Assembly (NCBI RefSeq): GCF_000221185.1
Contig: NC_015865.1
Span: 186,001-250,000 of the forward strand
Direction of reading: 5' to 3'
Length of the DNA stretch: 64,000 nucleotides
From: Thermococcus sp. 4557
GTDB taxonomy: Archaea; Methanobacteriota_B; Thermococci; Thermococcales; Thermococcaceae
Part shown: one piece after another, positions 2,529-59,183 of the stretch
How the letters are laid out: the number at the start of each line of letters is the position of its first letter
Position numbering within the stretch: position 1 is the stretch's first letter
Made by a program: the position numbers and the translations under genes
The notes under the pieces: model-generated
Seen by the model: the letters and a program-made list of their open reading frames with translations, nothing else
The model's database searches: none
What the model was told of the DNA's origin: nothing

Positions 2529-2822
2529 TTAAAACTTCTCCTCACATTCACACGGCTTCTTTCCGCAGTAGGGGCAGACGCCGGGATATTTCTTCTTCGC
2601 CGCTTCCTCAATATCGATATCGAGCAGGTTGGCCAAGCTGGCGAGCCACGCCAAAACGTCGGCGAACTCCTCCTCCATGGCCTCGCGGTCGTTCTTCCTT
2701 ATTGCCTCGCTCAGCTCGCCAACTTCCTCTACGAACCAGAGGAAGGTTCTCTCCACTCCCCTCTTCGAGTCCTTGTGGAAGTAGATCTCCCTGATCATCT
2801 CCTGAAACTCGCGTATCTCCAT
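2529..2822 (-). CDS. MazG-like nucleotide pyrophosphohydrolase with C-terminal zinc ribbon
   Basis: A 97-residue all-alpha MazG-type protein. The metal-binding acidic signature is visible as EEVGEL followed by EEEFADV about 15 residues later; this fold hydrolyses NTPs or dNTPs to the monophosphate and pyrophosphate (house-cleaning). The C-terminus adds a short knuckle, CPYCGKKPCEC, not needed for the MazG core and probably binding zinc. The gene stands alone between the tldDE operon and the ATPase operon and is divergent from the latter. Minus-strand GAGAACATG precedes the start. The nucleotide preference cannot be read from the sequence. Confidence 0.85.
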   Translation of the reverse strand: MEIREFQEMIREIYFHKDSKRGVERTFLWFVEEVGELSEAIRKNDREAMEEEFADVLAWLASLANLLDIDIEEAAKKKYPGVCPYCGKKPCECEEKF

Positions 2823-2876
2823 GTTCTCACCTGAGGAAATGGGAAGAAAAGGGCTTAAAAATCACTCGCTGATAAC

Positions 2877-2934
2877 AAACTATATAAGCATGATATACAA
2901 CATATTTGTCGTACGACAGTTGTGTTGTACGACA
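2877..2934 (+). promoter_or_regulatory. TATA box with two near-identical 12-bp palindromes (operator)
   Basis: TATATAA at 2881-2887 is a good archaeal TATA box. About 25 bp downstream, where transcription should start, lies the perfect palindrome TGTCGTACGACA (2907-2918), followed 16 bp later by TGTTGTACGACA (2923-2934), which differs by one base. Both lie ahead of the ATG at 2955. The position over the start site suggests repression of the ATPase operon. The regulator is unknown; no DNA-binding protein adjoins except the winged helix inside the second ATPase. Confidence 0.65.
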
Positions 2935-2954
2935 CCATAGTTGGGGATGATAGA

Positions 2955-4139
2955 ATGGTTCAGATCGGCGGGCCGGCACTGGGAGAAGACTTCCATGACA
3001 GAGAACGGGAACTCTTAGAGCTTAAAAGGAAGGTGTTAAAGAACAATATCCTTATCACAGCCCCCCGACGGTTTGGAAAAACCTCTCTGCTCAGAAAGTT
3101 CGAGGGTGATATGAAGAAGAATGGGTATACTGTAATTTATCTCGACGTTATGGATGTATCGTCCCCTGAGAGATTTATCCATGAGCTAACTTTGGCAGCT
3201 TTTGATGAGGCTGATCTTAGAGATGACTTTTTCGAGAAACTTAAAAAGATATTCAAAGGCTTAACTATAGATGCGAAAACACCCGTTGCCTCTTTAAAGC
3301 TTGAGCTAAGCAAAGTTGTTGAAGACAATGTCAATGAGAAAACCTGGCATGACACTGGAAGGGAAATAGTTAAGGCAATCGTCGGCTCTTCTGAAAAGAA
3401 ACCTGTCATTGTTATTCTCGATGAACTCCCGGAGGCAGTGTCCAATATGAAAAAGAAAGGTTCCGATGCCGTTGAGTTTCTCCAGTGGTTTAGGAAAGTG
3501 AGACAGAAAGTTCCAGAGATCAAATTCATCGTAGCGGGTTCCACGAGTTTTGAGAAAGTGGTAGAATCAATAAGTGGAAGAAATGCATACATAAATGACA
3601 TGTACACCATTTCACTGAGTGGATTTTCAAAGGAAGACGCTCTGAAGTTTCTGGAAACAGCGTTCGAGGAGGATGATCTCCCATTCACAGGAGGAATTGG
3701 GAATAAAATCCTCGAACTTGTGGGGGAACCGTACGTCCCTTATTTCCTTGCAGTTTTTGTGGACATCTTATATGAAGCGACGGAAGAAGGAACGAGTCCT
3801 GATGAAATCTTTAACCGGCTTGAAGAGGTGTACTGGTCAAAACTACTCGGAAGTGAAGGTACTAGGTACTTCCGCGATTATGGTGATAGACTCAAGATAT
3901 ACTACTCCGAGTATCTTGAGCCAGTAAAGGAAATACTAAAGGAGGCCGCTGGTAGTGAGGAGGGAATTAATGTAGACCTTGCTAAGGAGATATTCCTAGA
4001 GCGCACGGGATGCAGTGAGGATGAGTTCAACCTCCTCCTTAGAGATCTAGAGAATGACTTCTATATCTCTGTGAGGGGTGATCGTATAATCTTCCAGTCA
4101 AAACTAATGAAGGATTGGTGGGGGCTGAACTATGGATGA
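2955..4139 (+). CDS. Archaeal P-loop ATPase (AAA+/STAND-like), first gene of operon
   Basis: A 394-residue protein with a P-loop APRRFGKTSLL near residues 34-44, a Walker B VIVILDELPE near 155-165, a sensor-like VAGST, and a C-terminal region that looks like a winged helix. It belongs to the broad archaeal ATPase group related to PF01637. I chose ATG 2955, preceded by GGGGATGATAG; a GTG at 2922 lies inside the operator. Its last 8 bases overlap the next ATPase gene, so translation is probably coupled. The DNA is richer in A/T than the flanking core genes, suggesting acquisition. Biological role is unknown; a defence or stress role is only inference. Confidence 0.75.
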   Translation: MVQIGGPALGEDFHDRERELLELKRKVLKNNILITAPRRFGKTSLLRKFEGDMKKNGYTVIYLDVMDVSSPERFIHELTLAAFDEADLRDDFFEKLKKIFKGLTIDAKTPVASLKLELSKVVEDNVNEKTWHDTGREIVKAIVGSSEKKPVIVILDELPEAVSNMKKKGSDAVEFLQWFRKVRQKVPEIKFIVAGSTSFEKVVESISGRNAYINDMYTISLSGFSKEDALKFLETAFEEDDLPFTGGIGNKILELVGEPYVPYFLAVFVDILYEATEEGTSPDEIFNRLEEVYWSKLLGSEGTRYFRDYGDRLKIYYSEYLEPVKEILKEAAGSEEGINVDLAKEIFLERTGCSEDEFNLLLRDLENDFYISVRGDRIIFQSKLMKDWWGLNYG

Positions 4140-6612
4140 TGCCTTGTACCTTTTTAATCCCTCAGTCATGGAAAGAGAGATCCTTGAGAGGATATTTGTA
4201 GGGGAAGAACGGAGGAGACTCCTTGAAAGACTAAGGCGAGATATCCTTAAGGGGGCTAGAATAAACAGTCCTCGCTACTACTTGGTAATCGGACCAAGGG
4301 GTATAGGGAAGAGCCATTTTGTGACTCTCTTATACTATCGGCTCTTGGAGCATTCCGACGAGTTGCTCCCAGTAAAGCTCGCAGAGGAGGAGTACTCTAT
4401 CTTTACCTTGGCGGATTTTCTTGTTAGGGTTTTGGAGGCGATGGGGAAACGTGATGTGGTCAGCAAACTTGAAGACCACACTGAAGAGGAGATAATTGAA
4501 CTGGCCAAGGAATTCTTGAAGGAAAATAGAAAGATGATCGTGGTTATACTTGAGAATCTCAATCAAATACTTGAGGAACAAATGACGGAGGAAGAGGTCA
4601 AAAAATTCCGCTCCTTCCTTCAGGAGACAAACTTCATGAGCATTGTCTCGACGGCTCCCTCCATTTTCCCAGGGGTATCAAAGCACAGCGCTCCATTCTT
4701 CAACTTCTTCCGCATGATTCATCTTCACGAAATGAGCAGGGATGAAGTGTGGGAACTCCTCCGGAAACTCGCCGAGATAGAGGGAGACTCAGAACTGATT
4801 AGGAGAATAAATGAATCAAGAGGCCCAGTGAATGCCGTTATTAGAATTACCGGTGGCAACCCAAGGGCGGTTGTTTTACTCTACAACGTGCTGAAGAGCG
4901 GTGAGGTTGTAAGTGCTGAGAACCTTCTTTTCAAGATACTGGACGAGAGCACACCGTACTATCAGAGCATATACTCAATGCTCGATGGTAGGAAGAGAAA
5001 AGTTCTCGATACCTTAATCATGATTGGTCGGCCTGCAACGCCCAAAGAGATTGCACGAAAGGCAAGAATGGACGAAAGATCCGTTGCTACCTATCTCCGT
5101 AGGCTAGAAAGGGAGGGCTATATTCTCTCAAAGAGGGCAGGTAAAAACACATACTACTCAGTAAGGGACGTCCTCTTCAAGTTATGGCGGGAGCTGAGGA
5201 TCAATCCCAGCCAGAGGGGGATGGTATCTTTGTTCATCGAGTTTTTGCAGGTTTGGTACACTCCTGAGGAGATCATTGAGAGGCTATCTAACCTATTAGA
5301 AGAAAAAGAACTTGACAAAAAAAGGGCAAAGGAAATTGCATACCTATTTTTCAGCCTGCCTAAGGACTATAAAATGATGATTGTGGAACCAGTCACCAGA
5401 AAACTTCTAGAAGCAGGATTTGTAGAGCTAATAGAAGAGAACCTAAGTGACATGGAAGTTAAGGAACAGGCACTTTTTGTGGAATTCATCGAACTTATGA
5501 AAAATGGGGAGTATGAGAAAATCCTCAAAAAGGCCAGTCGGCACATAGAGAGGGGCGAAAAAAGCCCCATCCCGTGGATGTTTAAGGCAGCAGCCCTAGA
5601 CGAACTTGGGAGGGAGAAGGAGGCTGAGCAAGTTCTTAAAGATGCCATTAACATGTTCAGAGACAGCTGGCTTGTGCTGGCCACACTGGGCTTTTTCTAC
5701 CTAGCAAAAGAAAAGCTCTCTGAGGCAATAGGTCTCTTTGAAAGAGTCATTGGAATGGCGCCTGAGCTACATATAGGATGGGCCCTGAAAGGGGAGGCCC
5801 TCATGGCCATGGGGAGGTACTCTGAAGCATTGGAAGCACTGAACAGGGCAATTTCTTTGGCTGCAAATATAGAGAACGCAGAGTTGTACTTAGACCGCGC
5901 TAGGTGCTATCTTAACCTTGGTAAATTCGAAAAGGCTGCGGAAGACGCTCAACGTGCTCTTGACATGGAGCCAGATCATCCGAGCGCGATAAGGATACTA
6001 GCTCTTTCCCTTATAGAACTCGAACGCTACGAGGAAGCGATTCCTCTGCTTGACCAATACTTGCAAAAACATCCCGAAGACTGGAGTGCATGGAGAATCA
6101 AATTAGGTTCCCTGGGCTTGGTAGGAAAAGGTGAGGATGCTATAAACACTGCAAATGAGATTGTAAAGAGGTATCCTATGATTACAGATGCCTGGCTGGT
6201 TCGTCTGGATATCTATCTCGGAGCTACTCTGGAAGCCCTCATTGAGGGAAACTTTGGGAATGCAAGGAACTACCTCTCAACTACGGTTGAGACTATAAAC
6301 AGAGTTCTAACGCTTGATCCGACTAGAACAAAGGAAACAGTAAGTGCAATATCCGGTTTTCTGAGAAATGTTGTTGAATACTGTGATATGAATGCGCTCA
6401 AGCTCTCACTGGAATACCTTAGAGGCGTCAAGAACCTCAAAGAGATATTGGAACCTTTTGAGGTTGCAATTAATGTGCTGGAAACTGGAAATGAGAGAGC
6501 GTACCTAAAACTTAATCCCGAAAGTCGGAAAATTGCAGAGGAAATAGTTAAAAAAATGAAAGAGCAGAAGACTTTAGGGGAGACGGTAAGAAAACTGGGA
6601 ACACAGAAGTAG
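4132..6612 (+). CDS. P-loop ATPase with winged helix and TPR repeats
   Basis: An 826-residue multidomain protein. The order is: P-loop GPRGIGKSHFV near residue 53, Walker B MIVVILENLN near 130, a winged-helix segment around 285-350 (GRPATPKEIARKARMDERSV...), a helical linker, then tandem TPR-like helices from about 450 to 700 (for example SEALEALNRAISL, FEKAAEDAQRALDMEPDH). This is a STAND-like layout: nucleotide switch, DNA or protein contact module and a superhelical sensor. No N-terminal effector domain is evident. The start overlaps the upstream ATPase by 8 nt. The pair could sense a ligand through the TPRs and signal through the first protein; that is inference. Confidence 0.75.
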   Translation: MDDALYLFNPSVMEREILERIFVGEERRRLLERLRRDILKGARINSPRYYLVIGPRGIGKSHFVTLLYYRLLEHSDELLPVKLAEEEYSIFTLADFLVRVLEAMGKRDVVSKLEDHTEEEIIELAKEFLKENRKMIVVILENLNQILEEQMTEEEVKKFRSFLQETNFMSIVSTAPSIFPGVSKHSAPFFNFFRMIHLHEMSRDEVWELLRKLAEIEGDSELIRRINESRGPVNAVIRITGGNPRAVVLLYNVLKSGEVVSAENLLFKILDESTPYYQSIYSMLDGRKRKVLDTLIMIGRPATPKEIARKARMDERSVATYLRRLEREGYILSKRAGKNTYYSVRDVLFKLWRELRINPSQRGMVSLFIEFLQVWYTPEEIIERLSNLLEEKELDKKRAKEIAYLFFSLPKDYKMMIVEPVTRKLLEAGFVELIEENLSDMEVKEQALFVEFIELMKNGEYEKILKKASRHIERGEKSPIPWMFKAAALDELGREKEAEQVLKDAINMFRDSWLVLATLGFFYLAKEKLSEAIGLFERVIGMAPELHIGWALKGEALMAMGRYSEALEALNRAISLAANIENAELYLDRARCYLNLGKFEKAAEDAQRALDMEPDHPSAIRILALSLIELERYEEAIPLLDQYLQKHPEDWSAWRIKLGSLGLVGKGEDAINTANEIVKRYPMITDAWLVRLDIYLGATLEALIEGNFGNARNYLSTTVETINRVLTLDPTRTKETVSAISGFLRNVVEYCDMNALKLSLEYLRGVKNLKEILEPFEVAINVLETGNERAYLKLNPESRKIAEEIVKKMKEQKTLGETVRKLGTQK

Positions 6613-8178: not shown

Positions 8179-8991
8179 TCACTCGGGCATCTCCCTGACG
8201 TGAACGTCGAGCTGCGGGAACGGGATCTCGATGCCCTCTTTCGTGTAGAGCTCGTATATGCCCTTCGTGAGGTCGCCCTTTACGTCCCAGTAGTCGTCCG
8301 TCTTGGCCCATGCCCTGAGCTGCAGATTGATAGAGGAATCCGCGAGGGCCGTTATCACGACGCTCGGCTCGGGGTCATCGAGCACCTTTGGATGGCTCTT
8401 CATCAGGTCCATGGCAAGCTTTATCGCCCTGTCGAGGTCCGTGCCGTAGGCGACGCCTATATCGACGCCAACCCTTCTCGTTGGCATGCGGGTGTAGTTC
8501 ACGATTATGCTTCCCCACACGAGCTTGTTGGGTATTGTTATTATCCTGTTGTCGGGGGTTTTGAGCTCGGTGCTCATAAGTCCGATGCCGCTGACGCTTC
8601 CGGTCTGACCCGACACCTCAACGACTTCCCCCAGGTCTATGGGCCTAAGGGCGGTTATCCAGACGCCCGCGGCGAGGTTGGTGAGCGTATCCTGCAGACC
8701 AAAGCCCAAGATCAAGCCTATGACCGCCGAGAGGCCGAGTATTAGCGGCGATACTGAGATGCCGACGGCACCGAGCGCCACTATGATGACTATGATGTAG
8801 AGCAGTATCGCCAGGAACCTCCCCAGAAACTCGATGACGAGCGGTGGGAGCTTCGTTTTCCGCATGCTCTTTTTGAAGAGCGAGACCAGAATCTTTGCCA
8901 CGATGTAGCCCACTATCAGGATTATCAGCGCCGATACCAGCTGGAACGGCGTAACCCCTATGTAGGGCAGGGGCTCATCCAGAGCCGCCAT
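8179..8991 (-). CDS. Small-conductance mechanosensitive channel, MscS family
   Basis: A 270-residue membrane protein. Three predicted helices occupy about residues 15-125: VSALIILIVGYIVAKILV, FLAILLYIIVIIVALGAVG and the pore-type helix SAVIGLILGFGLQDTLTNLAAG, rich in Gly and Ala as in MscS TM3. A beta domain follows (LGEVVEVSGQTGSVSGIGL), then the alpha-beta cage ending PFPQLDVHV. The size is that of minimal E. coli-type MscS. The channel releases solutes from the cytoplasm on hypo-osmotic shock. It stands alone, with GAGGTGATAGC before the ATG. Confidence 0.92.
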   Translation of the reverse strand: MAALDEPLPYIGVTPFQLVSALIILIVGYIVAKILVSLFKKSMRKTKLPPLVIEFLGRFLAILLYIIVIIVALGAVGISVSPLILGLSAVIGLILGFGLQDTLTNLAAGVWITALRPIDLGEVVEVSGQTGSVSGIGLMSTELKTPDNRIITIPNKLVWGSIIVNYTRMPTRRVGVDIGVAYGTDLDRAIKLAMDLMKSHPKVLDDPEPSVVITALADSSINLQLRAWAKTDDYWDVKGDLTKGIYELYTKEGIEIPFPQLDVHVREMPE

Positions 8992-9052
8992 GCTATCACC
9001 TCGAATAGTTTTAGAGAAAATTGGGTATCAAAGTAAAAAAGGTTTTCCTTTT

Positions 9053-10267
9053 TCACTCGAGAATCGAGGTTATTTCATCCCAGAGCTTCCCGGCCAGCTC
9101 GCGTTTGTCCATCCGCGGGAGCTTTTTGACGGAGTCCCTGCCCACGAGGATGACCTCGTTCTCCTCGCTTCCGAAGGCTTTGAGCGTGTTGGCCACAACG
9201 AGGTCGCTTCCCGCCCTCTCGATCTGTTTTCTGGCGGCGTTGATGAGCTCCTCCTCGCTGAGGCCGGTCTCCGCCTTGAAGCCGACGAGGAAAGCTCCCG
9301 GCTGAAGCTCCTTAATCCTGTCTATTATCTTCGGCGTCGGTTCGAGCTCGAGTGTTAGAGTTTTTCCGCTCTTTATTTTCACGCTGGCCCTTTCCTTGAC
9401 GCGGAAGTCGCTCACCGCGGCGGCGAGGATAACGATGTCGTATTTCTTGGCCTTCAGCTCACTCTCTATCGCCTGGAGCATCTCCTCAACGGTCTCGACC
9501 TCGATCTGGTTCTCTACGAAGCTGGGAACGCTCCCCTTCGTCCTGATGAGCGTGACCTCCGCCCCTCTGAATTCCGCCTCCTCGGCTATTGCGACGCCCA
9601 TCTTCCCGCTGCTCGCGTTGGTTATGTAACGAATCGGATCTAGGTACTCCCTCGTTGCGCCGGCTGTGACGAGAACGCGCTTTCCTTCGAGTGTCTTTGG
9701 ATGGAGCTTTTTGATGACGCGGTAGACTATCTCGTCCGTTGTGGCCACCTTCGCCTTGCCCTCCTCGAAGCGGGGCCCTATAAACTCGACGCCGAGCCTC
9801 TTGAGCTTCTCGATGTTCTCGACGACTATCGGGTGTTCGTACATGGTGGAGTGCATCGCGGGGGCAATCATTATCGGTGTGTGGGCGAAGGCAGTCGTCA
9901 CAACGGTTGTGACCGGTGTGTCATCGATTCCGCAGGCGATTTTTCCTATCGTGTTGGCAGTCGCGGGACAGACGAGGATCAGGTCGGCCTTGTTCTCGTG
10001 CTCCCCCGCGAGCTCAACGTGCTCGATGAAGCCGGTGATTTCAGTTACGACCGGGTTCCCTGTGGCGAACTCCATGGCGTAGGGGTGGATTATTTTGGTG
10101 GCGCTCTCGCTCATAACGGCGTGGACCTCGGCACCGTGCCGTATCAGCTCCCTGGCGAGCTTGACGCACTCGACGGCGGCTATACTCCCGGGAATCGCGA
10201 GAACGATTTTTTTGCCAACGAGCTTTCTGCTCTTCGTGGCATGGATCAGTTTGACGTGGTGAAGCAT
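9053..10267 (-). CDS. coaBC: Bifunctional phosphopantothenoylcysteine decarboxylase / phosphopantothenate-cysteine ligase
   Basis: 404 residues in two domains of coenzyme A synthesis. The N-terminal flavoprotein CoaC (about 1-190) has the catalytic His in the HVEL context, the PATANT form of the PASANT motif and APAMHSTMY. The C-terminal CoaB (from about 205) opens GKRVLVTAGATREYLDP and carries NASSGKMG, the nucleotide-binding region. CoaB joins 4'-phosphopantothenate to cysteine and CoaC decarboxylates the product. GGAGGTG stands 5 nt before ATG 10267, and a TATATA-like element lies at about 10297-10305 on the minus strand. A short N-terminal extension of about 15 residues precedes the CoaC core. 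Confidence 0.93.
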   Translation of the reverse strand: MLHHVKLIHATKSRKLVGKKIVLAIPGSIAAVECVKLARELIRHGAEVHAVMSESATKIIHPYAMEFATGNPVVTEITGFIEHVELAGEHENKADLILVCPATANTIGKIACGIDDTPVTTVVTTAFAHTPIMIAPAMHSTMYEHPIVVENIEKLKRLGVEFIGPRFEEGKAKVATTDEIVYRVIKKLHPKTLEGKRVLVTAGATREYLDPIRYITNASSGKMGVAIAEEAEFRGAEVTLIRTKGSVPSFVENQIEVETVEEMLQAIESELKAKKYDIVILAAAVSDFRVKERASVKIKSGKTLTLELEPTPKIIDRIKELQPGAFLVGFKAETGLSEEELINAARKQIERAGSDLVVANTLKAFGSEENEVILVGRDSVKKLPRMDKRELAGKLWDEITSILE

Positions 10268-49818: not shown

Positions 49819-50481
49819 CTAAACCTCTCTAAGCTTTTTCCACACCTCGTTGTACTGGAGTGCTAGCCAGTACTCTCTCAGTTTTCTCTGAGCACGTATG
49901 TAATCTGGATAATAGTCCCTCACAAGCGCCCAAAATGCTCGGGAGTGCTTTTGGAACCTGAGGTGGGCCACCTCGTGGATTATGATGTAGTCCCTGAGCT
50001 CCTCCGGCAACGCCATAAGCATAAGGTTAAAGCTTAGATTTCCCTTCTCGGAGCAGCTCGCCCACTTCGTCTTCTGGAAGCGGATGTAGATTTTCCGGTA
50101 CTTTACCCCAAAGACTGATGAGAAGAGTCTCACCTTGAATTCCAGCTCTTCTTTCAGCTGACTTTTCAGCCATCTTTTTAGGGTTCCCAAATCGTTGTTT
50201 GGCAAGAGAACCACGTGAAACTTTGGATTAACCCAGAACTCCTTCGACTCGATGAGTTCGTAGAACTCACCGTCGAGTAGGAGCTTATTGGAAAGCGGAA
50301 GGAACTTTATCTTGGCTTCTTCGATTTCCCTTAGCTTCTTCTCTATCCACTCTCTCTTTCTCTTCATCAGATCCTCGACATCTGCGTTTGGTGGGATTAC
50401 TACCTTAACCTCCCCAAGGGGGCTTATCTCGATGCGGGGATACTTAACATCCCTCAGAATCACGCGATACTCTATCCCCAC
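49819..50481 (-). CDS. YgjP-like metallopeptidase (DUF45/M48-related)
   Basis: 220 residues. The zinc motif is HEVAHLRFQKHSRAFW (HExxH plus third His), preceded by the family motif KTKWASCSEKGNLSFN. Members of this family are often last in type I restriction operons; they may process or turn over restriction subunits, but this is inference. It overlaps the end of hsdR by 10 bp on the same strand, so it is translated from the same message. Confidence 0.85.
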   Translation of the reverse strand: MGIEYRVILRDVKYPRIEISPLGEVKVVIPPNADVEDLMKRKREWIEKKLREIEEAKIKFLPLSNKLLLDGEFYELIESKEFWVNPKFHVVLLPNNDLGTLKRWLKSQLKEELEFKVRLFSSVFGVKYRKIYIRFQKTKWASCSEKGNLSFNLMLMALPEELRDYIIIHEVAHLRFQKHSRAFWALVRDYYPDYIRAQRKLREYWLALQYNEVWKKLREV

Positions 50482-53420
50482 CTTTTGAGCACCTCTAGGA
50501 GCTCGTTGCGCGTCTTGATGATATCGTCACATTTTCCCTTATATTCCCCTACGATAAATAGCATAATTCTCCGCGAGATTTCGCTGACGATCTCAGTTTT
50601 CTCCGTCCAACGGGTGAACCTAAGCGCCTCCGTCTCCTTGAGCAACTTTCTGACCCCTTCGATAAGCTCTCGGGTGTTGCCCTTTACGTGCCTCTTGAGC
50701 ACCATCAGGAGGGCGTATTCGAGCTCGTTCAAACCGAGCTCTCTCTGCTCCTGTGAGCGCTTTTCTATTTCCTCGGCTATTCCAAGGAGCTCATCATAGA
50801 GCTTCTCGATTTCTTCCTTCTTGTGCCTCCAGGCTTCGATTATCCTTTCAACTTGTTCAATCAGATCCTCGCTTAAAGGCCCCTTGTGGGTGTTTACGTA
50901 GTGTCTGACTGAGAACAGGAGGTTAGTAAACGCCTTCCGCTTATCCCTCTCCCTCATTACTTTCCTGAGGAACTCCTCGTCAATTTCGATTACTGGGAAG
51001 TCGGCCTTTATCTCCTCTATGTCAACGGTCTCCTGTATGAATCTGAGCGCCTCCTCGAAGAATTCGTCGGCTTTGAGTTCAACTTCCGGCGGGATACCGT
51101 CAACCTTCGATCTGTATGCATAGTAGACCTCCGTGAGCCATTTGAAGGCCTCCCTGAACTCATCTCTGTCCTCCCTGAGGAGCTTGTAGTGGTGCCTTAT
51201 CTCCCTGTACAGCCTCTGGAACTCCTCGCCCTTGTTGTTTCTGAACAGCGTCTCGACTGCGTTCATTATGGTCCCCCTATCCCGCCTCGGCTCAAGATCA
51301 TCAAAGTACCCCATGGCCTTGGCGATCTTTTTCCCGAGCTCTTTCTTTATCTTCTCGACGCTGTAGGCGGCCCCTTCGATATCAACCTCGTCGTAGATTT
51401 CCAGCGCTCTCTTCAACTCCTTGAATATGCCCACGTAATCTATAACGAGGCCGAAGGGCTTGATGTTCTCACCGTTCTTGATGAAGGGCCTGTTGGTCCT
51501 CGCTATCGCCTGAAGGAGTCTGTGCTCCTTGAGGGGCTTGTCTAGATACATGGTTTGAAGAATCGGGGCGTCAAAGCCCGTGAGGAGCATATCGGTAACT
51601 ATCAGAATCTTTGGGATTTCCTTGTTCCTGAAATCCTCACGAATCCTCTCGCGGATTTCGGCCATATCTTTTCCGGGAAAGCGCTCTTCAAGCTCTTTTT
51701 GATATTCCTTGATAACCTTGTCATCGTCCCGATTGAAAGTCATCACGACCTCGGTGTATTCCCTTGGCAAATACTTGTCGAGAGCACGCTTGTATAAGAC
51801 GCAGGACTCCCTATCAACCGCTACCACCATTGCCTTAAACGGCTCCACGCTCTCCTTGTAGTGCCTTGCTATGTCCTCGGCTATCATTTCGATCCTCTTC
51901 GGGTTTTTCAGGAACACCTTTATCGCGTTGAGCCTCTTCTTGAGCTTCTCCTCAACCCTCCCGCGGTACTCCTCCGGGATTTCCTCCAGCTTCGATGAGA
52001 GAAACGCCTCAAGGAGCTCCCTCTTTAGGTGAACGTCCTCCTCAAGCCTCGCCTGATAGGCTATCTTCACGGTAAATCCGTCCTCTATGGACTGCGTTAT
52101 GAAGTACCTGTCGAGGTAGGGCCTGTCCTTATGGCCGAAGGTGGCATAGGTGTCGCGCCCTTTCTTCGCTATTGGCGTTCCTGTAAAGGCGAAGAAGGAC
52201 GCGCTTTTGAGTATCGAGCGCATGGTTGAAGCGAGCTCGCCGTACTGGGTTCTGTGGCCTTCATCTATCAGAACCACGACGTCCCTGCGGTTCATTATCG
52301 TCTTTCTTCTCCGGCTTTCCCTCTTGAGTCCCTCCAGCACGTCGTTGAGGTCCTCAGCGCGGAACTTGTGGATGAGCGTGATGAATATTCCCCTCTTCCC
52401 ATCGGCGTGGGTTAGGACTTCCTTGAGCTTCTCGATTGAACCTACCACTTCAAAGCTCAGGCCCACGGCCTTAAGCTCGCCGCTCAGCTGTCTCTCAAGT
52501 TCCCTCCTGTCAACGACGAAGAAAATCGTGGGATTGCCGAGCAGGCGCTTGATTTTATATGCGGAGAATATCATGGTCAGCGTCTTCCCGCTTCCCTGCC
52601 AGTGCCAGATTAAACCCCTGTTCCTCTCGGTTTCCCCCTTAGCGTAGCCGACGGCGATGTTTACTATCTCCCTGACTGCTCTGTACTGCATGTACCTCGG
52701 CAGAACCTTCGTGAAGGCTCCGCCGCTCTCACGGTAGAAGGTGAAGTATCGGAGGACGTCAAGGAGAGTCCCAGGTTTTAAAAGCTCAACCAGGTTATCC
52801 AATTCGTCAAAGCTCTCTCCCTTCCATTCGTATACCGGGACGCTCCCGAGCCACGGTACTATGGGGAAATAGACGGGTTTATCTCCAACCGCGATGCCGA
52901 TCTGCACGTACTTGAAGAGCTCGGGCATTTCCCTCTCGTAGTTCTTAATCTGCTCGTAGGCCTTTTTCCAGCTCACGTCCAGCCTTTTGCACTCGATTAT
53001 AACCAGCGGGATGCCGTTGACGTAGAGGATTAGGTCGGGTATCTTGGTCTTAAACGGATAGCCGACCTGGTTGGCGACGAGGAACTCGTTGTTTCCGAGA
53101 TTTTCGTAGTCTATGAGCATCAACCTTTTAGGCTCGCCCGTTTCTTCATCCTTCACGGGGACGCCGTTTTTGAGATAGTCGAGAACCCTGCGGGAACCTT
53201 CAACGCCAAAGTGAGCAGTCTTAAGGAGGTTTATTGCCTCCTCCGCTTCCCTTTCGCTAACTCCGTTTATCCTCACTATCGCATTCTTTGCCCTTGAGAT
53301 TAAGAGGGGCTCGTTTTCGTCTTCGAGGACCTCGATGCCCCTCTTATACTTCCAGCCCTTCGATTCCAGCCGCTTGATGATGGGCTTTTCGCACTGAAGA
53401 TATTCGGGGGTTTCATTCAA
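50472..53420 (-). CDS. hsdR: Type I restriction enzyme, R subunit
   Basis: About 982 residues: N-terminal nuclease domain with PDLILYVNGIPLVIIECK (PD...E-x-K), superfamily 2 motor with HWQGSGKTLTM (motif I), VLIDEGHRTQ (DEGH-type box), FFAFTGTPI (motif III) and ATDMLLTGFDAP-like motif (TDMLLTGFDAP), and a helical C-terminus. It translocates and cuts unmodified DNA in complex with HsdM and HsdS. I chose TTG 53420 (GGGAGGTG ahead) rather than TTG 53450; the start overlaps the MNT gene end. Confidence 0.93.
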   Translation of the reverse strand: MNETPEYLQCEKPIIKRLESKGWKYKRGIEVLEDENEPLLISRAKNAIVRINGVSEREAEEAINLLKTAHFGVEGSRRVLDYLKNGVPVKDEETGEPKRLMLIDYENLGNNEFLVANQVGYPFKTKIPDLILYVNGIPLVIIECKRLDVSWKKAYEQIKNYEREMPELFKYVQIGIAVGDKPVYFPIVPWLGSVPVYEWKGESFDELDNLVELLKPGTLLDVLRYFTFYRESGGAFTKVLPRYMQYRAVREIVNIAVGYAKGETERNRGLIWHWQGSGKTLTMIFSAYKIKRLLGNPTIFFVVDRRELERQLSGELKAVGLSFEVVGSIEKLKEVLTHADGKRGIFITLIHKFRAEDLNDVLEGLKRESRRRKTIMNRRDVVVLIDEGHRTQYGELASTMRSILKSASFFAFTGTPIAKKGRDTYATFGHKDRPYLDRYFITQSIEDGFTVKIAYQARLEEDVHLKRELLEAFLSSKLEEIPEEYRGRVEEKLKKRLNAIKVFLKNPKRIEMIAEDIARHYKESVEPFKAMVVAVDRESCVLYKRALDKYLPREYTEVVMTFNRDDDKVIKEYQKELEERFPGKDMAEIRERIREDFRNKEIPKILIVTDMLLTGFDAPILQTMYLDKPLKEHRLLQAIARTNRPFIKNGENIKPFGLVIDYVGIFKELKRALEIYDEVDIEGAAYSVEKIKKELGKKIAKAMGYFDDLEPRRDRGTIMNAVETLFRNNKGEEFQRLYREIRHHYKLLREDRDEFREAFKWLTEVYYAYRSKVDGIPPEVELKADEFFEEALRFIQETVDIEEIKADFPVIEIDEEFLRKVMRERDKRKAFTNLLFSVRHYVNTHKGPLSEDLIEQVERIIEAWRHKKEEIEKLYDELLGIAEEIEKRSQEQRELGLNELEYALLMVLKRHVKGNTRELIEGVRKLLKETEALRFTRWTEKTEIVSEISRRIMLFIVGEYKGKCDDIIKTRNELLEVLKRWG

Positions 53421-54018
53421 TGAAAGGCACCTCCCGGGCGAACTCTCCAATCAGCACGGGGGCAAGTTCATAGCTTAGCCCCCACAGTGAGAGGAACTCC
53501 TTGAACTTATAGACCGAGCCAATGGGCACGAGGACAACTCCTGGAGCGAGCTCCATTGAGTTCGTCTGCTTTAGCAACCCCAGGTTTCCATTTCTGCCCC
53601 GATACGCGTAGAGGAAACGCATCTTTTCGCTCTGGGGAAGGGACGAGTAGGAGAATCTGAAAAGAAAGTAGCCATTGGCGTTGAGACGTTCATGAAGAAA
53701 CTTGCCGTTGAGTAGAGAGTACCCCTCGACCAGGAGGGCAAAGCCAACGAGGTTGTTCTCGTCAAAAAGCTCCTCAAGAAGAAAGCCCTTTACATCCACC
53801 TCTTCAGGCGAAAAACCGTTCTCCTCCAGAAGGCGCTTAAACTCGAAGGAAATCTCAAAGGGATTGCCCTTTTTTACGATTACAGCAATATCCACATCGT
53901 TTGGTTTTTCTTTTCCTTTAACCGAAGAGCCGTAAAGAAGGATATCCCAGACGTCTGGATTTTCGGAAGCAAACTCCTTCGCTATCTCACTCAACCTTTT
54001 CCTTAAGTCTGATAACAT
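53413..54018 (-). CDS. MNT nucleotidyltransferase with C-terminal extension
   Basis: 201 residues. The minimal nucleotidyltransferase signature GSSVKGKEKPNDVDIAVI (G-S...D-x-D) is at about 30-47. The C-terminal hundred residues are an extra domain without recognised motif. In HEPN-MNT modules the MNT protein is the antitoxin and can AMPylate the HEPN toxin. It overlaps the HEPN gene by 32 bp upstream and hsdR by 8 bp downstream, so toxin control and restriction share one transcript. Confidence 0.85.
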   Translation of the reverse strand: MLSDLRKRLSEIAKEFASENPDVWDILLYGSSVKGKEKPNDVDIAVIVKKGNPFEISFEFKRLLEENGFSPEEVDVKGFLLEELFDENNLVGFALLVEGYSLLNGKFLHERLNANGYFLFRFSYSSLPQSEKMRFLYAYRGRNGNLGLLKQTNSMELAPGVVLVPIGSVYKFKEFLSLWGLSYELAPVLIGEFAREVPFIE

Positions 54019-54319
54019 CGCTCTTCACCGCTATCAGAAGCCTGTCATCGACCCGCCTCGTGTATGTGTCCCTGTAATATGGGAAGTAATGACTCAGAAC
54101 GCTGTACAGGTCGGGATAGCGCAGTTTTAGCAGTCTAAACCTCTCCCTGTGGTTGTCCGGCAGAACCCTGAGGTCACGCCAGAGGATGTAATCGCATATT
54201 GCCACGAGGGATTTAAAGTACATCATGAACGCGGCGTTGGTGAGGCCTTCCTTAAACAGCAACTCGGCGCTCTGAAAATACTCATCGATGTTATCTTTTA
54301 GATCTTCAAGTCTTCCCAT
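53987..54319 (-). CDS. HEPN-domain protein, partner of MNT
   Basis: 110 residues, all helical: MGRLEDLKDNIDEYFQSAELLFKEG, a central LVAICDYILWRDLRVLPDNHRERFRLL and a YTRRVDDRLL end, the pattern of HEPN toxins and substrate-binding partners of MNT. A classical R-x4-6-H RNase motif is not clear, so it may be inactive or use another site. ATG 54319 follows CGTGATA and a TATA (CTTTTATAG) at 54349-54357. A longer in-frame reading to 54430 would translate the operator repeats and is not favoured. Confidence 0.75.
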   Translation of the reverse strand: MGRLEDLKDNIDEYFQSAELLFKEGLTNAAFMMYFKSLVAICDYILWRDLRVLPDNHRERFRLLKLRYPDLYSVLSHYFPYYRDTYTRRVDDRLLIAVKSDVIRLKEKVE

Positions 54320-54327
54320 ACTATCAC

Positions 54328-54419
54328 GTTTATGGATAAACGCGGAAGGGCTATAAAAGGCTTTTTGTTTATCGATAAACAGAAAAGCCGAGAAAAAGCT
54401 GATTTGTTTATCGATAAAC
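54328..54419. promoter_or_regulatory. Three palindromes at exact 39-bp spacing round the HEPN-MNT promoter
   Basis: GTTTATGGATAAAC (54328-54341), GTTTATCGATAAAC (54367-54380) and GTTTATCGATAAAC (54406-54419) start exactly 39 bp apart. The last two are perfect 14-bp palindromes, the first differs at one central base. The minus-strand TATA box (54349-54357) lies between copies 1 and 2, so copy 1 covers the start of transcription. The intervening DNA also shows weak similarity between units, so this is a degenerate 39-bp tandem repeat as well as an operator array. It also lies ahead of the divergent membrane-protein gene. Confidence 0.75.
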
Positions 54420-54491: not shown

Positions 54492-54716
54492 ATGCCTGTG
54501 ATAAGCATGGGGACGAACCTCTTGGGGTTGGGGATACTGGTAGCCGTGGGCATAATATTCCTGAGTAGGATTCTCGATTTGTTGAAGGATTATGCTGGAG
54601 TTATCGTGGCGCTGGTTGGTTTGGCCATGATATTCGCTCCTGAGTTTCTGATGTCGCAGAGTTTGATTGTGGGTGTGTTTTTGGTAATTGCCGGGATTGC
54701 GTTGGCTACTAGTTAG
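54492..54716 (+). CDS. Small membrane protein, divergent from HEPN-MNT
   Basis: About 74 residues, with two to three hydrophobic segments: NLLGLGILVAVGIIFLSRIL, YAGVIVALVGLAMIFA and SLIVGVFLVIAGIALA. CTATATAAAC (54455-54464) is a TATA box, giving a start of transcription near 54488; ATG 54486, 54492 and 54507 are possible starts. Its stop overlaps the end of hsdS by 4 bp. It is the only plus-strand gene in the island and faces the palindrome array. Role unknown; a membrane-acting toxin or membrane-stress factor is conceivable. Confidence 0.6.
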   Translation: MPVISMGTNLLGLGILVAVGIIFLSRILDLLKDYAGVIVALVGLAMIFAPEFLMSQSLIVGVFLVIAGIALATS

Positions 54717-56005
54717 TACTTTACTCTCCTCCTTCCTGTCAGCAAATCCCTCATCAGCCCGCGCTTAACGCGCTCAAGCTTCTCCCTTCTCCGCCTGAGG
54801 AGTTCGAGCTTTCTGTCAACTGTGGAGAGGATTTCGGCGATTTGTTTTTGTTCGGAGAGAGGTGGGAGGGGGAGTTTAAGTCTCTTTATGGTTCCTGCAT
54901 AGAGTGCGGGTAATGTGGTGCTAGAACGTGCTGCGTTTATCTGCCATGGGATAATCTTAGAATCGTTGATAATACGTTCAAGGTACTCAGGCCAGAGTAT
55001 CTCTGGGTTAACTCTTATTATTGCAAGATTTGTGTGAATAATGCCTTTTTCTACCCCCTCAGGAACTACTATTGCCTTCCCAACGGTTCCACGTATTGTT
55101 AATAGAATATCACCTGGCTTAACTTCCATACTCTTTAGCTGTTTGAATTTTTCTGGGGAGATGTAAATGTTGCCGAGCGAAAAGTCTCTCCTTAGAACAT
55201 TATCTTGGGTGTATACTTTGATCCCTCTATCTGTCAACTCACTTTTTCTAAGTTGGCTTCCAAAGGGCCCAGTTTTTATCTTCTGGGCAATCTCCCCCAA
55301 CCTAACAACCTGCCACTCTTCCGGAATCTCGCCCAGCTCGGTCTTCTTGAACCGCTCGTGCTTGATGCCCTTCGTTAAAAGCCTCTGCATGAGGCCATTC
55401 TTTAGGCGCTCCGTCCGCTCGATGGCTTCGTCGGTTTTCTCGATGGCATTGTCAACGGTGCGCAAAATCTCGGCGATTTTCTTCTGCTCGGGGAGGGGTG
55501 GGAGAAACAATAGTAATCGTTTCAGTTCGCTGTTTTTTATTCCCCCAATCATGCCATGGAATGCTTGTTGAATCTGTACTTGAGCAAATGGGGAGTACAT
55601 AAAATAAAATAAGAACAAGTTATGAAGTGTATTGAAGTCTTTTGGCCTCAGAAGATAGACATGTTCATTTATGGCAACCTCTGAGTAACCTTTTATGTCC
55701 TCAACGAACGCGACTTTACCTGTTGTTGCTCCATCCTTAACAAGTAAGATATCCCCAACTTTGACCTTTCCTTTTCTAAGCTGAGCAAAGAACTCCTTGG
55801 GAATGAATTTCATATTTTCCCATTTAATTCTGCCATCAGAACCAATGTGTTCTCCACCAATGCTTGGAACTTCTCCCGCTTCTTGGCCTCCGCCTTTTGG
55901 TCGTTTTCCGCTTTCAAAGTGGACTACTTCTCCAAGCCCCACAACCACCCAATCCTCAGGAATCTCGCCGATTGGAGTTTTCTTGAACTTGATTTCAGCA
56001 TTCAT
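54713..56005 (-). CDS. hsdS: Type I restriction enzyme, S (specificity) subunit
   Basis: 430 residues with the typical two-fold layout: target recognition domain 1 (TPIGEIPEDWVVVGLGEVV...), first conserved helix PPLPEQKKIAEILRTVDNAI, then domain 2 (TELGEIPEEWQVVRLGEIA...) and the second helix PPLSEQKQIAEILSTVDRKL. The two domains set a bipartite DNA target. ATG 56005 follows TGGTGACTAAA, overlapping the end of the HEPN gene. Target sequence cannot be predicted by eye. Confidence 0.94.
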   Translation of the reverse strand: MNAEIKFKKTPIGEIPEDWVVVGLGEVVHFESGKRPKGGGQEAGEVPSIGGEHIGSDGRIKWENMKFIPKEFFAQLRKGKVKVGDILLVKDGATTGKVAFVEDIKGYSEVAINEHVYLLRPKDFNTLHNLFLFYFMYSPFAQVQIQQAFHGMIGGIKNSELKRLLLFLPPLPEQKKIAEILRTVDNAIEKTDEAIERTERLKNGLMQRLLTKGIKHERFKKTELGEIPEEWQVVRLGEIAQKIKTGPFGSQLRKSELTDRGIKVYTQDNVLRRDFSLGNIYISPEKFKQLKSMEVKPGDILLTIRGTVGKAIVVPEGVEKGIIHTNLAIIRVNPEILWPEYLERIINDSKIIPWQINAARSSTTLPALYAGTIKRLKLPLPPLSEQKQIAEILSTVDRKLELLRRRREKLERVKRGLMRDLLTGRRRVKY

Positions 56006-56006
56006 T

Positions 56007-57620
56007 TTAGTCACCATATATGTTTTCAATTTCTGACTTTAGGAGGTTTTTCAACGTGTCCAACAACATACGGGCGTCGCCTTTGTTAATAGGTCTTGCA
56101 TGATGGATAAGGTCATTTCGTTTGCCATTTAGGTTTTTAATAGTGTTATATATATTCCCCTCAATAATGCCATGGAGTTCAAGTACCTCTAGTTTTTTAT
56201 GTAGTTCCCACTGATCTAACTTCTCTTTACGATTCTTTGAGAGTTTTTTGTCTACCCATAACCTTCTCCAAAATCTAGAAATAAGTCGTTCTAGTCCTAC
56301 CCATCCCATAATAAAAGACTGATTAAACTCTGATTCGAGATAGTGGGAATATGCTTCAAGAAAGAGGATAAGGATTGTAGTCAAATCTTCATCCGTATAA
56401 ACTGTTTCTGCATAACCAACTGCCTTTTTAATTGCATCAACCCCAAGGATAGGTCGCGTGTGTGGAGCTGAAATAATTGATCGGTGAATATACTTATAAA
56501 TTGGCTGTGATTCATCAGATGGAATATATGACCTGAAAATGTAAAACCTTGGGGGCTTTCTGGGATAGTACACCTCTTTTAGGTCGGAATATCGTGTTGC
56601 AAAAAAATTTGCATTTCCTACAAAGATGGTTAATAAACTGGTAATCAGATTTATTACCTTCCTCGCTTCCTCTCGTGATCGTGTTAGGACTAAAATCATT
56701 CCATTGTTTTTAATTTCAATCTCTATCTCTCCAATTTTGAATTTCTCGCTAGGGCTTGGAGAGATTATTGGTTTCAATAGCACGTGTTCGTGAAAGTTTC
56801 TCATTGGCTTCTCAAACACCCAGACTGGTGGATATAAGTATGCTGCATATCCAACAATTTCAATGCTGTCAGAAAAAGATCTGGACTCTTTGTTGTTCTC
56901 CTTTGGAGCTGTTTTAGCCAGTGACATGGCACTATCAAGGAGTTCTCTAAGTTCTTCAAGAAGCTTTTTTTGATCCAATTCTGCAATATTGCCAAAGAAG
57001 ACATCAATTTGGCCATCAGGGGGCAAGAATACTGTACGTTTTGTGAAGTACATCCCAACAGTGAAAGGTTCCACCATAACGGTTCCAAAAAGAGGCGAAT
57101 AACGGTAGCTATATAAAAATAGGCTAAGAAACTTAGCAAATACATCAGCATATGTTAAATTTTCACCATCTGAAAAACCTATGTTGGTCCCAGCGGGTAG
57201 TTCTTCAACTGTGAAAATGTCAAATTTTTTGAGATAATCCTTGAAGTCACTTGGAAATTCTTTTTTCCACCATCCCTCACTATTTAGTACTTCGTTTATT
57301 CTATATAAGAACTCATGACCTAAGTAGGGGCCATGAACTATTACCTCCTTGTCATCTCTCTCTGGATCATGGGTAGTTACTATTATTTGCCACTCACAGG
57401 GTTTGCTCATCCAGAACACCTCTATTTGGCAGGGATACCTGAATGGTTCAAGATATACTAGCTTCATTAGATTAAGTGGATCTTCTAAATCCTCTTTCTT
57501 GATGTCGTCTAAGTTCTTAATGCTGTTTAACATGGGATATTCTTCTCTTACAGAATCAATGAGGGAGATGAACCATTCTTTTACTTGGTTTAGTTCTTTT
57601 TCATAGGATGATTTTTCCAT
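56007..57620 (-). CDS. 537-residue protein with C-terminal HEPN (Apea-like) domain, inside the RM operon
   Basis: The C-terminal 130 residues read ESEFNQSFIMGWVGLERLI... and LNGKRNDLIHHARPINK, the two helices of Apea-like HEPN domains; RNDLIH (about 500-506) is an R-x4-H ribonuclease motif. The first 380 residues have no recognised domain. The DNA is markedly AT-richer than hsdM or hsdR. It lies 10 nt behind hsdM and abuts hsdS, so it is made with the methylase and specificity subunits. By analogy with anticodon nucleases guarded by type I RM enzymes it may be an RNase released when restriction fails; this is inference. Confidence 0.7.
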   Translation of the reverse strand: MEKSSYEKELNQVKEWFISLIDSVREEYPMLNSIKNLDDIKKEDLEDPLNLMKLVYLEPFRYPCQIEVFWMSKPCEWQIIVTTHDPERDDKEVIVHGPYLGHEFLYRINEVLNSEGWWKKEFPSDFKDYLKKFDIFTVEELPAGTNIGFSDGENLTYADVFAKFLSLFLYSYRYSPLFGTVMVEPFTVGMYFTKRTVFLPPDGQIDVFFGNIAELDQKKLLEELRELLDSAMSLAKTAPKENNKESRSFSDSIEIVGYAAYLYPPVWVFEKPMRNFHEHVLLKPIISPSPSEKFKIGEIEIEIKNNGMILVLTRSREEARKVINLITSLLTIFVGNANFFATRYSDLKEVYYPRKPPRFYIFRSYIPSDESQPIYKYIHRSIISAPHTRPILGVDAIKKAVGYAETVYTDEDLTTILILFLEAYSHYLESEFNQSFIMGWVGLERLISRFWRRLWVDKKLSKNRKEKLDQWELHKKLEVLELHGIIEGNIYNTIKNLNGKRNDLIHHARPINKGDARMLLDTLKNLLKSEIENIYGD

Positions 57621-57629
57621 CGTACCACC

Positions 57630-59183
57630 TCAATACCCCAGCTCCCTCAAATACCCCTCAATCTTCTCATCCACCTTGGCCAGCTCCTCGTTAATCCCCT
57701 TCAGCTCTTCCCACTCGGCCTTAACGTCAATCTCCTCCTCCTCTTCCATCGGGAAGACGTAGAGGGTGACGTTGAGGTTGTAGTCGTTCTCCTTTATCTC
57801 GTCCAGCTCAACGACGCGGGCAAAGCCGTCAGCGTCCTCGAACTTCTCAAAAGCTTTGACGATTTTCCTGATGTGCTCCTCGCCGAGGCGGTTGAGCTTC
57901 CTAACCTCCGGGTGCTTTTCGTATTCCTGGGATGCGTTGATGAAGAGGACTTTATTCTTTCTGTTCTCTGGCTTGTTCCTGTTGAATACCATTATCGCAC
58001 CCGGCGCGCCGGTGTTGTAGAACAGCTTTTCGGGGAGGAGAATAACGGCCTCAAGCAGGTCGTCCTTGAGTATCTTCGCCCTTATCTTCTTCTCGGCCCC
58101 GCCCCTGAAGAGCGCGCCGTTGTCTATGACGATGCCGACCCTTCCATCATCTTTGGCGCTCGCGAGCATATGCTGGATCCACGCCCAGTCCGCGGAGTTG
58201 TTGGGCGGATAGCCGTACTTGAAGCGCTCCTCCTTAAACTCGGCCTTCTTGAGGGTCGCCTCGCCGTAGCCGTCCTGATTCCAGGGCGGGTTGGCTATAA
58301 CCACATCGAAGCGTTTGAGCCTTTCGCCCTCCTTAAACTGTGGTCTCAGAAGTGTATCACCAACGGCAAGCTTCGGCGACTTAATGCCGTGGAGTATCAT
58401 GTTCATCTCGGCTAAAGCGTAGGTGGTCGGGTTTACCTCCTGGCCGTAGAGGAAGAGCTTTTTGGCCTCATCCGCTCCTCGATGCTCCTTGACGTAGAGA
58501 TAAGCCCCGATGAGCATGCCTCCGGAGCCCATCGCGGGGTCGTAAACCTCCTCGCCTGGTTCGGGCTTAAGGATCTCAACGAGGAGCCTGATGACTTCTC
58601 TTGGAGTGTAAACCTCGCCCTCCTTGGCCTTCTGCGGGGCAAAGTAGCGGAGAATCCACTCGTAGGCGTCACCAAGAACATCGGGGGAGGCGTTCTTTAA
58701 GTCAAGCCCGCTGAAGAGCTCGAAGAGCTGCCTGAGTATCTCGGCATTGTCCCTGTGGAGCATGAACTCCATGAAGTCGAACCTGTCAACGACTCCCCTG
58801 AGGTTGGGGTTCAGCTCGGCGAGCTTCTTGAGGGCCTGCGAGAGGTTCTGGGGAAGGCTCTCGATGTCCTTCTCGCGGAGCTTCCTCCAGAGGTATTCGG
58901 GTGGATAGTTGATGGTGTACGCTTCCCTGTCCTTGAGGGCAAGCTCTTCGGCGGTCTTCCTGTCCAAGCCTTCGTTCATGAGCTTCTGGGTATATTCCTC
59001 AAACTCCTTCTCCCACTCGTCGCTTAGTCTCTTCAAGAACAGCAGGAGGAGGATGTACTTGTAATCCACGCGTGTTCTGATTAAATCCGCGGCCTTCTTA
59101 AGAACCCTCTCAAGCTCCTCGCGGGTCAGACCTTTGTTTTCTTGAGCTGGTGAGTTGATAAAATCCGTGAGCTTCCTCTCCAT
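57630..59183 (-). CDS. hsdM: Type I restriction enzyme, M (methyltransferase) subunit
   Basis: 517 residues: N-terminal helical HsdM domain, SAM motif VYDPAMGSGGMLIGAYLY (about 212-228), catalytic VVIANPPWNQDGYG (NPPW, about 299) for N6-adenine methylation, and DNGALFRGGAEKKIR. It methylates the site named by HsdS and so protects host DNA. ATG 59183 follows GGTGTGAATC. First gene of the island transcript. Confidence 0.95.
   Translation of the reverse strand: MERKLTDFINSPAQENKGLTREELERVLKKAADLIRTRVDYKYILLLLFLKRLSDEWEKEFEEYTQKLMNEGLDRKTAEELALKDREAYTINYPPEYLWRKLREKDIESLPQNLSQALKKLAELNPNLRGVVDRFDFMEFMLHRDNAEILRQLFELFSGLDLKNASPDVLGDAYEWILRYFAPQKAKEGEVYTPREVIRLLVEILKPEPGEEVYDPAMGSGGMLIGAYLYVKEHRGADEAKKLFLYGQEVNPTTYALAEMNMILHGIKSPKLAVGDTLLRPQFKEGERLKRFDVVIANPPWNQDGYGEATLKKAEFKEERFKYGYPPNNSADWAWIQHMLASAKDDGRVGIVIDNGALFRGGAEKKIRAKILKDDLLEAVILLPEKLFYNTGAPGAIMVFNRNKPENRKNKVLFINASQEYEKHPEVRKLNRLGEEHIRKIVKAFEKFEDADGFARVVELDEIKENDYNLNVTLYVFPMEEEEEIDVKAEWEELKGINEELAKVDEKIEGYLRELGY

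Follow-up and report, generated by a model that had tools for sequence, protein, structure and literature searches.

Do restriction-modification (RM) enzymes control the effectors embedded in their operons, or do they merely carry them? The anticodon nuclease PrrC, with EcoprrI, is embedded in a type Ic RM locus. A similar arrangement, a predicted HEPN RNase gene within a type I hsd operon, is found in the window, a stretch of 64,000 nucleotides from the 2.0 Mb, single-contig genome of Thermococcus sp. 4557. Here the HEPN gene appears to be an exchangeable component within a modular antivirus locus.

Position and neighbours of the HEPN gene

On the minus strand the genes are ordered hsdM, the HEPN gene (product P0001), hsdS, a probable HEPN/MNT pair, hsdR and a gene for a YgjP-like metallopeptidase (Table 1). 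In the ORF list of the window the HEPN gene is an intact ORF of 537 codons. The preliminary description had placed it, without naming a strand, between hsdM and hsdS, abutting hsdS, 10 nt behind hsdM and in DNA richer in AT than hsdM and hsdR. All of this was confirmed except the exact distance, the gap to hsdM being 9 nt. A single base lies between the TAA of the HEPN gene and the ATG of hsdS, and GC content is 37% in the HEPN gene and the hsdM-hsdS gap versus 55% in hsdM and 52% in hsdR. The HEPN gene and its hsd neighbours are probably made from one mRNA, and from the SD-like signals at both junctions translation of the HEPN gene looks coupled to that of its neighbours.

Upstream of the HEPN/MNT pair and hsdR lie three 14-bp palindromes GTTTATSSATAAAC at 39 bp spacing (54328-54341, 54367-54380 and 54406-54419), two of which are separated by a TATA-like CTTTTATA. 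Within the window's own genome this tandem array occurs only at this site, and copies of the palindrome were found near the hsdR start in L003, L069, L073 and L074. The array is a probable operator.

Table 1 Features of the operon in the window and content of the hsdM-hsdS gap (slot 1) across related loci
Feature	Position or locus	Strand	Basis
hsdM	57630..59183	-	profile searches
SD-like GAGGTG for HEPN gene, overlaps hsdM stop	57626..57631	-	
HEPN gene, 537 aa (P0001)	56007..57620	-	ORF and 10-homologue alignment
N-terminal region, residues 1-249, without known family; missing in four short homologues	56874..57620	-	alignment, model, profile search
Middle alpha/beta module, residues 253-353, weakly TBP-like	56562..56864	-	VIA-align Z 5.8
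HEPN domain (predicted), residues 406-537	56010..56405	-	AlphaFold2 model, VIA-align, AbiV profile match
E444, conserved acidic residue, HEPN helix 2	56289..56291	-	invariant 10/10
RNDLIH, R501-x4-H506 active-site motif	56103..56120	-	R and H invariant 10/10
SD-like GGTGA for hsdS, within final HEPN codons	56011..56015	-	
hsdS, ATG at 56005	54713..56005	-	profile searches and junction reading
Second slot (hsdS-hsdR): small helical, probably HEPN-type protein and MNT nucleotidyltransferase	53413..54321	-	profile searches; pair also in L079, L098
hsdR	50472..53450	-	profile searches
Slot 1: HEPN gene	window, L003		
Slot 1: PIN_2-type proteins	L068, L075, L080		
Slot 1: PIN proteins	L069, L070, L074, L080		
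Slot 1: 558-619 aa family (558-aa family)	L003, L068, L079		
Slot 1: 346-351 aa proteins, membrane-bound in appearance	L073, L076, L077		
Slot 1: 117-aa proteins	L069, L070, L078, L080		
Slot 1: single unknowns	L072, L081		
Slot 1 without any ORF of 75 aa or more	L071		

The HEPN domain and the region before it

Ten homologues (15-31% identity), gathered by protein and profile searches, were aligned. Only M1, N324, W440, E444, R501 and H506 are invariant, and N502 is shared by nine of the ten, while the remaining one has D. Hallmarks of HEPN domains are an R-x4-6-H motif closing helix 3, a polar residue after the R and, in many families, an acidic residue in helix 2 (PMC3710099). P0001 shows all of these, with R-x4-H, N502, E444 and a helical fold in the model. 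This AlphaFold2 model was built from 10 sequences, a first one from only 3 having been too poor beyond the HEPN domain. Residues 390-537 are predicted to be helical with confidence (block pLDDT about 79-96), E444 lying within helix 432-457 and the R501/H506 motif at helix 488-507. Foldseek with this model gave no match at E below 0.001. VIA-align of the Foldseek candidates gave a Z of 13.0 to the HEPN protein AF_0298 (2hsb), about 12 to MntA/HepT and 11.7 to the HEPN of Csm6; helical bundles may score Z 13 through common arrangement alone, and the likeness was read as real because HEPN proteins make up almost all of the best-scoring rows and the motif agrees.

In single-sequence searches P0001 matched Pfam DUF4145 below threshold (E 9e-4, residues 463-523, 19.7 bits versus a cut-off of 23.1), as well as HEPN_Swt1, also below threshold. 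Among the 10 homologues DUF4145 was matched by six (best E 1e-5), HEPN_Swt1 by four and HEPN_RiboL-PSP by three. A profile of the 10 homologues, searched against solved structures, matched the HEPN region of AbiV (E 4e-4). AbiV differs in its length of about 200 aa and in the typical absence of the R-x4-H histidine (PMC3710099). By alignment and model, the last ~130 residues of P0001 are a predicted HEPN domain with the complete conserved active-site set. The HEPN helices with RNDLIH at the C-terminus had thus been read correctly in the preliminary description, and the predicted structure contains the helical bundle. The label 'Apea-like' was rejected, as HEPN_Apea and ApeA_NTD1 gave no Pfam match for P0001 at E up to 1 and were absent from the families matched (E up to 0.05) by the 10 homologues. 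Two further early remarks, that the first 380 residues match nothing and that the architecture is unlike that of PrrC and RloC, proved sound. Residues 1-390 gave no usable sequence match in Pfam, NCBIfam, PADLOC, PHROG or PDB, and P0001 has another N-terminal part, with no ATPase profile match where PrrC and RloC have an N-terminal ABC ATPase.

The PDB sequence search was run with P0001 alone and with a 3-sequence profile, both yielding nothing, and a search of a viral structure library with the model gave nothing convincing. The N-terminal region was modelled, with low confidence, as mixed alpha/beta; in ApeA the N-terminal about 300 aa are mostly beta strands. The middle module bears a weak resemblance to TBP (1ais; 77 residues, rmsd 3.7). 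A TBP-like module followed by a C-terminal HEPN domain with R-x4-H is also the layout of RnlA and LsoA (RNase LS). This is a weak fold resemblance only (VIA-align Z 8.5 to LsoA 5hy3 and 5.3 to RnlA 6y2p), and hhalign gave no sign of a sequence relation to RnlA. An hhalign comparison of the N-terminal and middle parts, for an internal repeat, was negative too. Since both parts were modelled with low confidence, self-regulation by residues 1-390 is a guess; the N-terminal part is a candidate sensor.

A swap slot between hsdM and hsdS

The hsdM of the window was searched in the 94 genomes of its order (one family) and 20 loci were taken. In 16 of these, including the window, hsdM is 82-95% identical and is followed by hsdR and YgjP where the contig is long enough. 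In all 15 sister loci the DNA resemblance to the window breaks off no more than 7 nt from the hsdM stop codon; most show it once more over parts of hsdS, and those that include hsdR also near the start of that gene. The slot in between holds many unrelated families, all slot-1 ORFs are co-directional with the operon, and slot GC is below that of hsdM in every locus. Content also varies in the gap between hsdS and hsdR, a second slot, which holds HEPN/MNT, a 395-411 aa family, PIN or GmrSD. The swaps would be accounted for by recombination within conserved flanking DNA. Between the window and L003, hsdM is 84% and hsdR 71% identical while the HEPN proteins share 32%, which indicates either a much higher rate of evolution in the HEPN gene or its separate acquisition. 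No hsdM-hsdS slot is seen in three other relatives of hsdM (L083-L085), so that only some RM types have it. A KwaB-like protein (L086:3170-4330, L087:3577-4734) fills the hsdM-hsdS slot of a related RM type (hsdM about 48%), with GmrSD in its second slot.

One archaeal RM operon type keeps its slot and swaps the content among species of one order, providing a matched natural set of operons for the question posed above. Type I loci with inserted ORFs, and RM operons that include HEPN genes, are arrangements already known. RM-linked HEPN genes, mostly bacterial, were catalogued in 2013, with ApeA, DUF4145, AbiJ, Ymh and others among the families (PMC3710099). P0001 shares with these an R-x4-H HEPN domain in an RM neighbourhood and a family-specific N-terminal part, but it is archaeal, lies between hsdM and hsdS, matches DUF4145 below the cut-off and has no match to HEPN_Apea/ApeA_NTD1. 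The rlo genes of Campylobacter jejuni (restriction-linked ORFs) are insertions within type I RM loci (PMC2610378). These are likewise foreign ORFs, some of them RNases, inside the hsd loci of various strains; however, organisms and proteins are different, and in the archaeal operons the slot border stays at the hsdM stop codon from one genus to another. The open-access literature yielded no paper on how the slots of archaeal RM operons of this kind vary. Within that literature this HEPN family and its distinctive N-terminal part, the archaeal spread of the family and the sharply bounded swap slot are new, as far as shown.

Homologues and the role of the HEPN gene

The HEPN homologues of L003 (other genus, same family) and L005 (an archaeal MAG; best segment 28% identical) likewise lie in the hsdM-hsdS gap, which they share with additional genes. 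Together with the window all three RM-embedded members occupy this junction, and in the tree they form one side of a branch (90/95), with long end branches. L005 also encodes a second R-x4-H protein (RNNYLH, 368 aa, 8661-9767) between hsdM and the HEPN homologue, which has no Pfam HEPN match.

Seven of the 10 homologues, archaeal and more distant, have no hsd gene within the available DNA around each, although the one in L033 lies on a 3.4-kb contig that tests little of its neighbourhood. The L014 homologue adjoins a Schlafen/AlbA protein near a contig end. In L015 an integrase-like ORF, a Ymh-type HEPN and a nucleotidyltransferase are nearby; in L016 the homologue lies behind an EF-2 gene, with an Mrr endonuclease and an OLD-like ATPase in its vicinity. 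Integrase-type genes occur in the regions of L035 (weak) and L036. In L034 (8344-10255) a short homologue is found directly beside a Cas1-like casposase; PolB lies at 2550-4331 and EF-2 is adjacent. EF-2 is the usual casposon target in Thaumarchaeota (PMC6563490). By its gene neighbourhood the L034 homologue is putative casposon cargo. The homologues of L016, L034, L035 and L036 lack the N-terminal 240 residues. No P0001 homologue was found in viral contigs, plasmids and phage records. A match in G283 (L013/L017) was judged false, falling on a permease-type gene, and weak HEPN-only matches in G568, G711, G772 and G813 were left out of the count.

The HEPN family spreads among archaea, once beside a casposase. 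Its seven distant homologues without hsd genes, often near integrases, a casposase or other defence genes, show that the family is not tied to restriction, and the HEPN protein can presumably work alone. Judged from sequence, the RM association is a property of one group and not of the whole family. The preliminary description had named homologues mostly outside RM loci as a finding that would speak against its reading; in the available DNA this is so for the family as a whole, but not for the closest group, which keeps the position between hsdM and hsdS. Such homologues, together with the different N-terminal part, set P0001 apart from PrrC/EcoprrI.

The HEPN gene probably encodes an abortive or dormancy endoribonuclease that is exchangeable cargo of a fixed hsdM-hsdS slot in an archaeal type I RM operon. 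This reading draws on the predicted fold, on the conservation of E444, R501, H506 and mostly N502, on tight co-directional packing and on a slot that changes while the hsd genes stay alike. A HEPN dimer would cut host and/or viral RNA, and residues 1-390 would restrain the HEPN part and sense infection. RNA cleavage would arrest growth, a second line of defence after restriction. The RM operon would give the HEPN gene mobility, co-expression and a first defence line that the HEPN protein backs up. The grouping and exact shared junction of the three RM-embedded homologues hint that the tie to RM may be closer than that of mere cargo.

Such a tie could be that of PrrC: by analogy, the HEPN RNase would be held inactive by HsdM and HsdS (and possibly HsdR), be freed when a virus inhibits restriction, cut RNA and stop growth. 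This was proposed for RM-linked HEPNs in the 2013 survey (PMC3710099) and suggested for the present gene in the preliminary description, and it agrees with the placement of the closest group and the apparent translational coupling. However, with seven of 10 homologues without hsd genes and unrelated genes in the same slot of sister operons, no common RM-sensing part is visible; furthermore, a PIN_2 slot gene and an MNT/HEPN pair, though different cargo, persist in G046 without hsd genes. The guard reading is weakened by this, and control of this kind, though the leading alternative, is considered rather unlikely. The patchy spread, low GC and slot turnover, the homologues in a casposon and near integrases, and the toxin-antitoxin-like PIN and MNT/HEPN genes would suit a slot that gathers addiction modules and other genes, kept by co-expression with RM and with no role in host defence. 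Yet no recognisable antitoxin adjoins the HEPN gene, the catalytic residues are invariant despite very low identity and the neighbours are mostly defence-type genes, which makes a selfish passenger very unlikely. In some HEPN families the motif has been lost and only RNA binding is left (PMC3710099), but P0001 retains the R-x4-H motif, its polar N and the acidic residue in helix 2, which makes a non-catalytic RNA-binding or structural subunit of the RM complex highly improbable.

Returning to the exchangeable RNase cargo, the dependence of slot genes on RM can be followed in other slot families. The hsdM-hsdS junction might be a general effector socket, in which HEPN, PIN, KwaB-like and 558-aa family proteins are interchangeable PrrC-like guards under the methylase/specificity complex of one RM chassis; we regard this as unlikely. 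The evidence on dependence is mixed. The 558-aa family occupies slot 1 of four type I loci, one of them a divergent operon (G034), and lies directly behind Eco57I-type methylases in G030, G050 and G063, which suggests that this family partners with methylases; some slot genes may do so. Its further copies are at L100:7839-9644, L101:7399-9219, L102:877-2691 and L103:6405-8180, those of L100-L102 being the ones behind Eco57I-type methylases. The PIN_2 slot gene and HEPN/MNT pair of G046 (L098, contig C176, 6385-9098) lie side by side where hsdM, hsdS and hsdR are absent. This cargo is therefore tolerated without RM, and the arrangement is possibly a relic of the operon.
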